This document shows positions 36,253-40,636 of a stretch of 47,372 nt of DNA, piece by piece. Source of the DNA: Loigolactobacillus backii. Its GTDB lineage: Bacteria > Bacillota > Bacilli > Lactobacillales > Lactobacillaceae. The notes under the pieces are model-generated. The model saw only the letters and a list, made by a program, of their open reading frames with translations, was not told where the DNA came from and did not search any database. The position numbers and the translations under genes are program-made. Position 1 is the first letter of the stretch. Every line of letters starts with the position of its first letter. The stretch spans positions 1-47,372 of the forward strand of contig NZ_RHNQ01000010.1 in assembly GCF_003946275.1 (NCBI RefSeq), written 5' to 3'.

Positions 36253-36804
36253 TTAATCGTCGTCATCGTCTTCTTCATCCAGGCCAGTTCGTGCGTCGTT
36301 ACCAAGATAGAATTGAAGGTCACGGATATTATGATTATTAATGCCACGCAATTTGACTAGAAAGGCGGCCAACGCCGGTCGTTCTTCTTTTTCAGCCAAT
36401 TTAATTGCGCGATCGATAAATAAATTTTCCGTATCGTAGTCATGCACAGTAGCGTCGACAATGGCCGTTGCTGTGAAATATTTATTCTTGCCGGATTCTT
36501 CTAGCATACTGTACTTTTGATAATCAGCAGTTGTGGATGGTGGTACTTCCCCTTCGTCTAACAAAAGGTGACCTAATTCACTGCTTAACTGTTGGCTTTG
36601 GGCCAATAATTCAGTGAACTTAGGGACCAATGAAAAACGTTCGGGCCCTTTAACGTACCACGCGGCCTGCTGTAATTTACTAGCCTGAATAACCAAATTG
36701 GACAAAATATGGCCCGTCATGGCACCAGCAGTTGGTGTGTGGTGATCAATATCTGCTTGCTTTAATTCCTGTTCAAATTTTTCATCGATTGTTAGTTCTG
36801 CCAT
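36253..36804 (-). CDS. Dps/ferritin-like protein
   Basis: A 183-aa four-helix ferritin-like protein of the Dps group. Its helix A region is HILSNLVIQASKLQQAAWYVKGPERFSLVPKF, then a helix B with LLAQSQQLSSELGHLLLDEGEVPPSTT, where Dps has the ferroxidase-site D/E and the PPST turn. The C-terminus is an Asp/Glu tail (TGLDEEDDDDD). Dps proteins store iron and protect DNA from peroxide. The His of the classic ferroxidase site is replaced in the WYVKG motif, so full activity is not assured. The ATG at 36804 follows GGAGG, 15 nt after the HMA gene; the operon is HMA-dps with an FNR-type box. Confidence 0.78.
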   Translation of the reverse strand: MAELTIDEKFEQELKQADIDHHTPTAGAMTGHILSNLVIQASKLQQAAWYVKGPERFSLVPKFTELLAQSQQLSSELGHLLLDEGEVPPSTTADYQKYSMLEESGKNKYFTATAIVDATVHDYDTENLFIDRAIKLAEKEERPALAAFLVKLRGINNHNIRDLQFYLGNDARTGLDEEDDDDD

Positions 36805-36819: not shown

Positions 36820-37050
36820 TTATTTAGGTTGTTTAACCTTGAGGCTTTGCACTTCATAGCCCAGGCGATTTACGACTGCGGCCAAATCTTCGGCCGTTGT
36901 TTGACTTTCATCAAAATCCGTCTTTACTTTACTAGCGTTAAATAAAACTTTAACGTTCTCAACACCAGTTTGTTTCTTTAATGCCCCTTCAATTTTTTGC
37001 ATACATGACGGGCAAGTTAAACCATCTAATTGCATAATTGCTTTTGCCAT
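36820..37050 (-). CDS. HMA-domain metallochaperone (CopZ-like)
   Basis: A 76-aa ferredoxin-like HMA protein. The metal motif is GLTCPSCMQKIEGAL (CxxC) followed by VENVKVLFNASKVKTDFD. It presumably carries Cu+ or a similar soft metal to the P1B ATPase upstream. The motif has Leu-Thr before Cys, where CopZ has Met-x-Cys. The ATG at 37050 follows TGAGGT. It is first gene of the HMA-dps operon, under an FNR-type box centred about 34.5 bp from the -10. Confidence 0.85.
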   Translation of the reverse strand: MAKAIMQLDGLTCPSCMQKIEGALKKQTGVENVKVLFNASKVKTDFDESQTTAEDLAAVVNRLGYEVQSLKVKQPK

Positions 37051-37087: not shown

Positions 37088-37129
37088 AGTATAGAACGCC
37101 TGCTTTATAAAAAAATTGATTGAAATCAA
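37088..37129 (-). promoter_or_regulatory. FNR/FLP-type box and -10 of the HMA-dps operon
   Basis: TTGAT-TGAA-ATCAA (37116-37129) matches the FNR consensus TTGAT-N4-ATCAA perfectly. The -10 TATACT is at 37088-37093. The box centre (37122.5) is 34.5 bp from the far edge of the -10, i.e. about -41.5 relative to an expected start near 37081, the classical class II activator position. Confidence 0.75.
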
Positions 37130-37143
37130 GTTTTTGCTTTTAA

Positions 37144-39054
37144 TTAGGCGTGGGATACTTCTGATTGTTTGGTAGCTGTTTGTTGCTTAGAGCTGCGCGG
37201 TCGGTACTGAATCAGGCGCATTGCGTTAAAAATAACCACTAAGATACTGGCTTCATGAACAAACATCCCACTAGCCATGTAAATATAACCGAAGATCAAA
37301 CCAATGAGTAAGAAAACAACGGTCCCAATGGCAATGACGATGTTCTCGCGAGTATTTAAAACTGTCTTTTTGGCCAAGCCATACGCGTGCACTAGTTCGG
37401 CAAAGCTGGAACGCATTAACACAATATCGGACGTTTCAACGGCGACATCCGTGCCACCGCCCATGGCAATGCCAATATCGGCGGTTGCAATTGAAGGACT
37501 ATCATTGATCCCATCACCGATGAAAGCAACTGTTCGGCCGGCAGCCTTAAACTGTTTAACAAATTTCACTTTATCCTCAGGCAATAAATTGGCGTGAACT
37601 TCATCAATTCCTAATTGCTCAGCAACGTAATTAGCAGTAATCTGATTGTCCCCTGTCAGCATAACCAAATGTTTAATCCCCATTTGCTTTAACTGCGCCA
37701 AGGCTGGCCGCACATTGTCCCGGACAACATCCGAGACACCGATAATCTGCTGAATGACCTGATCGACTGCCACAATCACTGTCGAGCTGCCTTCAGATTG
37801 TAATTGGTGTAAGTCAGCCAACTGTGAGGTGGTTAATTCAACCTGATTAGCAGTCATCATTTTTTGATTGCCGACTAACAACTGGTGATCAGAAACTGTG
37901 GCGCTAACCCCTTGTCCCTTGACTGTCGTGCTATTAGTGACGGCCAATTTATCAAAATCGATTTGTTTATTAGTTGCGTAATCAGTGATTGCCTTACCTA
38001 ACGGATGATCCGAAAGACTCTCGATTTTAGCAACGAGCGCGGACACCTGCTTGGCATCGGCCGCGTAGTTCTTGACCGCAGAAACTTCAGTTGTTCCCTT
38101 AGTCAAGGTTCCCGTTTTGTCAAAGACTAATGTATCCACTTTGGCGAAGGTATCCACAACCTCGCCACCTTTAATCAAAACACCATTTTTGGCACCATTA
38201 CCGATCCCAGCAACGTTAGAAACTGGCGCACCGATAACCAAAGCACCAGGGCAACCTAGAACCAAAACCGTGATTGCCAAACGAAAATCCCGGGAAATCA
38301 GACCAACGATTAAAGCAATTAAAATAACTGCTGGTGTGTAGTAAGTGGCAAACCGATCAATAAATTTCTCGGCATGAGATTTGGTGTCCTGAGCATCCTC
38401 AACTAACTCAATAATTTTAGCAAAAGTGGTGTCATCACCAACCTTAGTGGCACGAATCTGTAAGGTTCCGTTATCGAGAATTGTTCCAGAGAAAACGGCA
38501 TCCTTTTCCCGTTTAGTCACTAGCTTTGACTCACCAGTAACACTGGCCTCATTTAAATAGCCAGCACCATCAACAATATCGCCATCAACTGGGACTTGCG
38601 CGCCAGTTTTAACCAAGACGACATCACCTTCGTCAACATCATCAACGTCCGTCTCAACCGTTGTCCCATCATCCTGAACCACTAAGGCAGTGGTTGGGGC
38701 CATTTCAGTCAACGATTTAATTGACTGGCGCGTTCTGGCCAAAGTTTTCTCTTCTAGAAAGCCGCCAAACAAGAAAAGAAAAGTAACAATTGCTGATTCA
38801 TTGTACTCTTGAATGATGAAAGCACCGACTACCGCAATACTGACTAGTAATTCAATGCTGATCGTCTTAACGCGCAAAGATTCATACGCGCGAATGATAA
38901 TTGGCACCGCCGCTATAATCGAAGCGATGATAAACGCCACCGTATACAATGTGTGCAACCCTAGCCAATTTGCAATAAAACCAATGGCAATTAAAATCGC
39001 CGTTGCAATCGTAATATTGTTCGTGTTCTTCTGAATAAAACGTTCAAACTTCAT
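37144..39054 (-). CDS. P1B-type heavy-metal ATPase with atypical CPG motif
   Basis: A 636-aa P-type metal ATPase without N-terminal HMA. TGES actuator, DKTGTLTKG phosphorylation site, SDHPLGKAI, and FIGDGINDSPSIA hinge are present, with eight helices. The transmembrane metal motif is GCPGALVIGAP: CPG instead of CPC/CPH/SPC, so metal specificity is not predictable from the standard scheme (Zn/Cd, Cu or Fe). Pairing with an HMA chaperone and Dps suggests Cu or Fe detoxification (inference). The GTG at 39063 is discarded because AAAGGAG lies 8 nt before the ATG at 39054. It has its own FNR-type promoter, identical in geometry to the HMA-dps one. Confidence 0.88.
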   Translation of the reverse strand: MKFERFIQKNTNNITIATAILIAIGFIANWLGLHTLYTVAFIIASIIAAVPIIIRAYESLRVKTISIELLVSIAVVGAFIIQEYNESAIVTFLFLFGGFLEEKTLARTRQSIKSLTEMAPTTALVVQDDGTTVETDVDDVDEGDVVLVKTGAQVPVDGDIVDGAGYLNEASVTGESKLVTKREKDAVFSGTILDNGTLQIRATKVGDDTTFAKIIELVEDAQDTKSHAEKFIDRFATYYTPAVILIALIVGLISRDFRLAITVLVLGCPGALVIGAPVSNVAGIGNGAKNGVLIKGGEVVDTFAKVDTLVFDKTGTLTKGTTEVSAVKNYAADAKQVSALVAKIESLSDHPLGKAITDYATNKQIDFDKLAVTNSTTVKGQGVSATVSDHQLLVGNQKMMTANQVELTTSQLADLHQLQSEGSSTVIVAVDQVIQQIIGVSDVVRDNVRPALAQLKQMGIKHLVMLTGDNQITANYVAEQLGIDEVHANLLPEDKVKFVKQFKAAGRTVAFIGDGINDSPSIATADIGIAMGGGTDVAVETSDIVLMRSSFAELVHAYGLAKKTVLNTRENIVIAIGTVVFLLIGLIFGYIYMASGMFVHEASILVVIFNAMRLIQYRPRSSKQQTATKQSEVSHA

Positions 39055-39100
39055 CTCAGTCACTCCTTTAATAAAATACCCTTATCGATTGAATGACTTT

Positions 39101-39145
39101 AGTATACTGAGGTTTTGTTCAGTTTAACTTGATCACCATCAAGTT
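39101..39145 (-). promoter_or_regulatory. FNR/FLP-type box and -10 of the P1B ATPase gene
   Basis: TTGAT-CACC-ATCAA (39129-39142) inside the longer palindrome AACTTGAT-N4-ATCAAGTT. The -10 TATACT is at 39101-39106, again 34.5 bp from box centre to -10 edge. No canonical -35 is needed. Confidence 0.78.
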
Positions 39146-39766: not shown

Positions 39767-40123
39767 CTACAGCCACCCAGCAACCCAAACACCTAAGTAG
39801 GCCAGCCCAACACCTAACACGGTAGATAATATTAAGTACTGCAGCAATGAATACCACTGTCCCCTTCGTTGAAAGATGACTAACTCGTTCATCAAAGTTG
39901 AAAAGGTGGTGAGCCCACCTAAAACACCAGTACTAAATAGTAGGTGATTAATTGAAGTGGCCGGATTAAAGCTTAATAATCCGATTAAGAAGCTGCCAAC
40001 TAGATTAATCCCAAACGTTGCGATTGGGAAGCGAATATTTGCAACTCGTTTAACCCAATTACTGATTGTAAAGCGGATTACCGCTCCAATTGCCGCACCT
40101 AAACCAACCAACATAAATGCCAT
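39767..40123 (-). CDS. crcB: Fluoride channel protein CrcB/Fluc, subunit 1
   Basis: A 118-aa membrane protein with four helices. GLGAAIGAVIRF, FGINLVGSFLIGLL (pore Asn) and GVLGGLTTFSTLMNE (TFS motif with Phe) define the Fluc fluoride-exporting channel. Gram-positive bacteria often have two CrcB proteins that pair; a second copy is encoded 145 nt upstream. The ATG at 40123 follows GGGGGAAG. No terminator with a T tract was recognised after it. Confidence 0.93.
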   Translation of the reverse strand: MAFMLVGLGAAIGAVIRFTISNWVKRVANIRFPIATFGINLVGSFLIGLLSFNPATSINHLLFSTGVLGGLTTFSTLMNELVIFQRRGQWYSLLQYLILSTVLGVGLAYLGVWVAGWL

Positions 40124-40267
40124 TTTCGCTTCCCCCTTTTTTAACGACGGCTAAAAAATTATGCCGCGTGAACCGAATACTTTTTGCAAATGTGATTGTG
40201 TTAAATTGATTGAAAGCTGCTAATAAAATTAGTTTAAAAGTACACCTAAGTACCTTTGCGATACGTG

Positions 40268-40636
40268 CTAATTTAAAAGTTTTCGTCCCAGTGCCATTCC
40301 AAAACTAGCCAATAAGAAACCACCGATTAATGAGGTCAGTAAATAGATTACACCTAGACCCAGTTGGTGCCGCGTTAGTAACGTCAATTCTTCTAAACTA
40401 AAACCGGAAAAGGTCGTAAATGCACCGACAAAGCCCGTACTCATACCAACGACAAGCCAATGGGGCAAGGGCCAGCGTTCCGCAATGTAAGTTGTGATAA
40501 AGGCCAGCAAAAAACTGCCGGTTAAATTAATTAATACCGTTGCAATTGGAAAATGCTGGTTAGGGATGATTGAGCTTAGGAAAAAGCGCAGATCACCACC
40601 GAGAAAGGCGAAAAAAGCAACCGCTAAACTATCCAT
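40268..40636 (-). CDS. crcB: Fluoride channel protein CrcB/Fluc, subunit 2
   Basis: A 122-aa four-helix protein with the same Fluc motifs: FLGGDLRFFLSSII, VLINLTGSFLLAFI (pore Asn), GFVGAFTTFSGFSLEEL. The two copies are clearly diverged and probably form a heteromeric channel. The ATG at 40636 overlaps the DUF190 stop by 8 nt, so these two genes are translationally coupled. Confidence 0.92.
   Translation of the reverse strand: MDSLAVAFFAFLGGDLRFFLSSIIPNQHFPIATVLINLTGSFLLAFITTYIAERWPLPHWLVVGMSTGFVGAFTTFSGFSLEELTLLTRHQLGLGVIYLLTSLIGGFLLASFGMALGRKLLN

Follow-up and report, generated by a model that had tools for sequence, protein, structure and literature searches.

Two promoters in the 47,372-nucleotide stretch of Loigolactobacillus backii DNA analysed here (contig NZ_RHNQ01000010.1, hereafter the window) carry the same FNR-type box at the same distance from their -10 elements, and we propose that both boxes serve as operators for FLP, an FNR-like protein. 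One promoter precedes the gene for a P1B-type heavy-metal ATPase, and the other precedes a gene pair encoding an HMA-domain metallochaperone and a Dps-like protein. An FLP dimer centered near position -41.5 would compensate for the missing -35 element and recruit RNA polymerase (class II activation), and would thereby switch on the metal ATPase together with the HMA chaperone and the Dps-like protein. As an account of the whole arrangement, FLP class II activation seems to us highly probable given the sequence comparisons described below, from which we infer FLP binding, activation, the redox signal, and the metal. For the lineage, support for such control is strong; for this strain, its operation is uncertain because the flp gene is interrupted.

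The box upstream of the ATPase gene occupies positions 39129..39142, and the -10 hexamer of this promoter, TATACT, lies at 39101..39106 on the minus strand. The box upstream of the HMA-dps genes occupies positions 37116..37129, again with a minus-strand TATACT, at 37088..37093. Both boxes, to which no strand is assigned, match TTGAT-N4-ATCAA exactly and are separated from their hexamers by 22 nt. The distance from the box center to the 3′ edge of the hexamer is 34.5 bp in each case; if this edge is taken as position -7 relative to a predicted start, the center would fall at about -41.5 at both promoters. The distance from the -10 hexamer to the start codon is also the same (37 nt). The box positions, the identical spacing, and the lack of any other full match in the window had been put forward in the initial annotation, and all were confirmed. 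The exact box occurs twice in the whole window, compared to a mean of 0.12 in dinucleotide shuffles, none of 100 of which reached two, and the full motif (box-N22-TATACT) is found exactly twice, both times on the minus strand, and never in 100 shuffles. No sigma-70 hexamer pair was found on the minus strand at either promoter. A dyad TTGAT-N4-ATCAA held at a fixed distance from a -10 element is the feature by which we assign promoters to the FLP regulon of Lactobacillales, and both window promoters possess it.

The ATPase (639 aa; 37144..39063, minus strand) scores above the cut-off for TIGR01525 (ATPase-IB_hvy), and its nearest named relative, from Loigolactobacillus iwatensis, is 99% identical. 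Its start codon is GTG, with an ATG three codons further in. The gene for the HMA-domain metallochaperone (76 aa; 36820..37050, minus strand; Pfam HMA) lies 15 nt from that for the Dps-like ferritin-fold protein (183 aa; 36253..36804, minus strand; Pfam Ferritin), and thus the latter is presumably the second gene of a single operon. Known metal subgroups of P1B ATPases are distinguished by the TM6 triplets CPC, SPC, CPH, and TPC. The window ATPase has CPG, which aligns to the CPC of CopA and the SPC of 7qbz and matches none of these four, and its TM8 motif is HEASI. CPG is present in 80 of 81 aligned ATPase sequences, the window protein included (the remaining one is unreadable), and HE-x-S-(I/V) is present in TM8 of 77 (four unreadable). 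Searches of mainly open-access main texts turned up no paper recognised as describing the CPG motif. The sequence does not name the metal.

The Dps-like protein finds its best PDB matches in Lactococcus DpsA (1zs3) and a second Lactococcus-like Dps (1zuj). When it is aligned with MrgA of Bacillus subtilis (2chp), the histidines of KLHRFHW, GPHFF, and TLHEKF are all replaced, as are the aspartate and glutamate of VDTIAER. We take these positions to include the ferroxidase ligands. The ligands that mark an iron-storing Dps (His, Asp, and Glu) are thus missing from the window protein in this alignment, which makes iron storage by ferroxidation unlikely and casts doubt on the iron-storage role that had been ascribed to the protein.

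Two other features lie close to these genes. In the ATPase leader, a hairpin covering the ribosome-binding site (window positions 39050-39100) has a z-score of -3.12 and is also strong in L. iwatensis (L075). As a general feature it was discarded, given a mean z of 0.16 over 64 distinct ATPase leaders and only four of these below -2 (mononucleotide shuffles). At 39767-40636, the window encodes two small membrane proteins that resemble a CrcB fluoride-channel pair.

The promoter arrangement is conserved well beyond this genome. Conservation was assessed in 80 named ATPase loci (L075-L154; the best 80 of 98) using a strict motif, TTGAY-N4-RTCAA-N22-TANNNT, within 220 nt upstream of a gene. The count excluded HMA matches that had less than 45% identity or began beyond residue 6. 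The motif precedes 78 of the 80 ATPase genes (the exceptions are in L081 and L148) and 71 of 74 HMA genes (exceptions in L101, L137, and L152). The arrangement is therefore the rule at these loci, contrary to the earlier view that it is not standard for lactobacilli. Some of the loci are near-copies of each other, and these promoters reduce to 70 distinct sequences for the ATPase and 66 for HMA. A search of 978,874 bases gave 174 matches to the motif at a spacing of 22, at least 149 of which come from the ATPase and HMA promoters, and the backwards control at this spacing gives none. Among the other spacings in the range 15 to 30, the highest count is 45, a minor excess at a spacing of 27 within L075-L154, and the rest give at most 16 each. 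Among open reading frames of at least 100 aa in the same loci, 71 of 1,100 have the strict motif upstream, a count that includes the ATPase genes.

Within the 70 and 66 distinct promoters, the two arms of the dyad are kept while the N4 between them varies, which indicates selection on the arms. This bears on the possibility that the boxes play no part in activation and are instead sites for a repressor, or remnants. The interruption of flp in this strain would be compatible with such a reading. However, the conserved dyad with its variable center speaks for selection, a constant 22 nt between box and -10 element is more in keeping with class II activation than with simple repression, and we regard repressor sites or remnants as most unlikely. 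The lack of a -35 element was also considered as positive evidence for activation and lost weight on inspection: none of the distinct promoters has more than four of six matches to the -35 hexamer, and the distribution in shuffled spacers is very similar. The -35 match is thus at the level expected by chance and is not selected against.

Similar ATPase loci with identical boxes are found in different genera and on a paracasei plasmid (L091, L093, L095, L096, and L226). On the plasmid, transposase genes flank the locus, and the module looks mobile.

Scanning the whole genome indicates which sites belong with these promoters. The exact box TTGATN4ATCAA occurs 27 times, compared to 13 times for the backwards control, and 21 of the 27 are inside frames of at least 70 aa. 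The box alone was therefore rejected as evidence, and it is the spacing to the -10 element that separates real sites from chance ones. When a TANNNT 22 or 23 nt from the exact box is also required, four places remain, all upstream of genes, and none in the controls. These are the ATPase, HMA-dps, and flp promoters (22 nt each) and that of nrdD (23 nt), and this search of all promoters, proposed in the initial annotation, thus yielded two sites in addition to those in the window. The nrdD box (L034; contig C68:26075-26117) precedes a gene for an anaerobic ribonucleotide reductase whose identity is confirmed by Pfam and NCBIfam, and the same sequence is present in L. iwatensis (L074). A looser pattern, TTGAY-N4-RTCAA-N21..23-TANNNT, gives nine places compared to four in controls; four of the nine are the promoters just named, and five are within frames. 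Exact boxes in L011 and upstream of a deoxynucleoside kinase-like gene (L020) have no -10 element at 21-23 nt.

The exact box and a TANNNT separated by 22-23 nt occur together 31 times across eight genomes of the genus, compared to two in controls, and several of the other matches in the genus fall inside frames. Strict boxes are found upstream of a pyruvate oxidase gene in another genome of the genus (L066; above the NCBIfam cut-off) and upstream of genes for a Spx/ArsC-like protein in others (L064, which was scanned, and L057, whose protein is alike by its start). The L064 protein is above the Pfam ArsC cut-off and below the NCBIfam cut-offs for Spx.

A CRP/FNR-like regulator encoded outside the window had been postulated, and an FLP-type gene is indeed present on contig C136. 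Searching the genome for HTH_Crp_2 gives four matches, of which two exceed the cut-off and two are weak and fall short of it. The C136 protein is FLP-like, in that it combines a cNMP-binding domain with the HTH. Its cysteines are at positions 10 and 109, and its recognition helix, TPETISRKL, has the E..SR signature that we use, together with the cNMP-binding fold and HTH_Crp_2, to recognise the FLP family. The gene (L001:1036-1713) has its own exact box, with TAAAAT 22 nt away, and FLP would be expected to drive flp itself and nrdD, as well as the two window promoters. However, although this box and those of the targets are intact, the reading frame runs for 72 codons from its ATG to an in-frame TAG at codon 73, followed by an open stretch of 152 codons. 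A look through the genome for flp therefore turned up the gene, in an interrupted form. The lack of any FNR/FLP protein in the genome had been named as grounds for abandoning the proposal; this is half the case for the strain and not the case for the lineage. Likewise, joint activation of the ATPase and HMA-dps units finds support in their shared class II boxes, whereas active control in this strain is called into question by the stop codon.

The matching frame is open, at 229-244 aa, in all seven other genomes of the genus that were searched, and thus intact copies of flp exist. By their FLP coordinates, five of the seven correspond to L. iwatensis, L. binensis, L. jiayinensis, L. rennini, and L. 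zhaoyuanensis. Compared to the L. iwatensis copy, the interrupted gene has 60 synonymous and nine missense codon differences besides the stop, which suggests that flp was lost very recently or that the assembly is in error. One possibility is therefore that the stop codon is an assembly or sequencing artifact and that FLP works normally in this strain. A single codon is affected, contig C136 is short (6,023 bases), and the ratio of synonymous to missense differences points to selection until very recently. However, the listed completeness of the genome is 99.92%, with 0.65% contamination, and apart from the stop the flp frame is clean. We see an artifact as a serious possibility that falls short of being probable. 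Either the ATPase and HMA-dps promoters of this strain may lack their activator, or the assembly may be wrong at one base. If the interruption is real, these promoters are probably weak or silent, unless another factor acts on them, and the strain would represent a natural experiment on a regulon without its activator.

The distribution of FLP supports its link to the sites. At an E-value threshold of 0.001, an FLP match is present in 39 of 40 and again 39 of 40 of the genomes carrying the named loci, and FLP is found at E below 1e-20 in 76 of 79 distinct genomes. No FLP was found in the genomes of L111 and L149 (the latter a 1.2 Mb draft), and that of L136 gives only a weak match (1.6e-8). 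The flp gene lies within the stretch around the ATPase locus in 20 of the 80 named loci. The association was also assessed in 395 genomes drawn evenly from the order, with an FLP threshold of E 1e-20. The 176 FLP-bearing genomes have a mean of 5.42 strict sites (control 0.63), and none is without a site. In the 219 FLP-negative genomes, the mean is 1.46 (control 0.58), and 65 have none. These genomes are related, and kinship inflates the significance of the association.

Some genomes depart from this pattern. Twenty of the 219 FLP-negative genomes have at least four strict sites, and L111 has the promoter in a genome where FLP was not found, which suggests that other proteins may use the box. 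This is relevant to the boxes in the window, where the broken FLP might be replaced by another Crp/Fnr protein, such as the NihR-like protein of contig C66. The C66 protein is the second HTH_Crp_2 match above the cut-off, and several box promoters persist in some genomes lacking FLP. However, the FLP search of the L. backii genome gives a single match, on C136, and the C66 gene adjoins a gene that we take to be nikM-like. A nickel regulator, NihR, has been predicted at this location (PMC3616900), and the C66 protein resembles it. Use of the boxes by such a protein is thus very unlikely in our view, and FLP remains the preferred regulator.

The 80 ATPase loci, together with 66 FLP loci, yielded 65 distinct FLP proteins, whose features were compared. 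The recognition helix (T/S)PE(T/S)xSR is present in all 65. A pair of cysteines, one N-terminal and the other ~98 residues later, is found in 61, and the other four show one cysteine, in some perhaps as a result of the start codon chosen. By count, 59 proteins have two cysteines, two have three, and four have one, and none of the 65 has the four cysteines of a 4Fe-4S FNR. Upstream of the 65 flp genes, a box of any kind is present in 26 cases and the strict promoter, within 260 nt of the chosen start, in 23, and thus autoregulation is not general.

In Lactobacillus casei, FLP is reported to act as a thiol/disulphide switch. Because two cysteines are conserved rather than four, our analysis suggests that the FLP switch is more likely to be of this kind than an Fe-S switch with four cysteines such as that of E. 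coli FNR. Two observations count against a thiol switch, both from a single source (PMC5039431), in which E. coli FNR is described as having four N-terminal cysteines and a 4Fe-4S cluster. First, the FlpA of Lactococcus may carry an Fe-S cluster that is oxygen-labile and bound by noncysteine residues. Second, changing one of the two cysteines in FlpS of Streptococcus suis left arcABC unaffected (PMC5039431).

The conserved targets make the question of metal and signal testable, since they pair a CPG pump with a Dps for which iron oxidation is unlikely, and a promoter architecture shared by 78 of 80 loci names the core FLP targets across the order. We speculate that FLP commands a distinct module, consisting of a CPG-type P1B ATPase with no assigned metal, a dedicated HMA chaperone, and a ferroxidase-less Dps, which occurs on plasmids as well, moves between Lactobacillales with FLP-ready promoters and uses the resident FLP, and that this strain has lost FLP while its four promoters stay intact. 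This is offered tentatively, as possible rather than probable. If true, the regulon would have been caught just after losing its master switch.

To our knowledge, no settled physiological regulon has been assigned to FLP in lactobacilli in the roughly three decades since it became known. Searches of mainly open-access main texts turned up no paper recognised as describing the ATPase or HMA-dps genes as FLP targets in lactobacilli. The FlpA regulon of lactic acid bacteria has been classed under metal homeostasis (PMC3616900), and flpB has been described as a regulator involved in Zn homeostasis (PMC9964109); the Flp of a third report is a pilus ATPase (PMC9484302). The FLP of L. casei resembles those examined here in having two cysteines and an FNR-like recognition helix, and the same promoters are also present in Lacticaseibacillus genomes. 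E. coli FNR acts at a TTGAT-N4-ATCAA box in the class II position. Both the box and its placement are shared with the promoters described here, whereas FNR has four cysteines and FLP two.

Among the closest known systems are the flp operons of Lactococcus lactis. A plasmid of this species carries the ATPase gene followed by genes for HMA, a DpsA-like protein, and a Crp/Fnr regulator. Upstream of both its ATPase and HMA genes, a box and a -10 element are again 22 nt apart, and its Dps matches the solved DpsA (1zs3) with an E-value of 1.1e-117. We take this gene row to be the published orfX-orfY-flp operon (FlpA and FlpB). Lactiplantibacillus and Latilactobacillus plasmids likewise carry the ATPase, HMA, Dps, and Crp/Fnr genes together, so that FLP adjoins the module genes on three plasmids. 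In a Lacticaseibacillus plasmid, the ATPase, HMA, and Dps genes are present, with no Crp/Fnr gene in the stretch. The HMA, Dps, and ATPase proteins of the L. lactis plasmid are homologous to those of the window; in contrast to the L. lactis flp operons, flp in the window's genome is on a separate contig, is not part of the operon, and is interrupted. Given the HMA-DpsA-Flp gene row on the L. lactis plasmid, our finding is not a new type of regulon: the window boxes belong to the known FNR-like-protein regulon of lactic acid bacteria.
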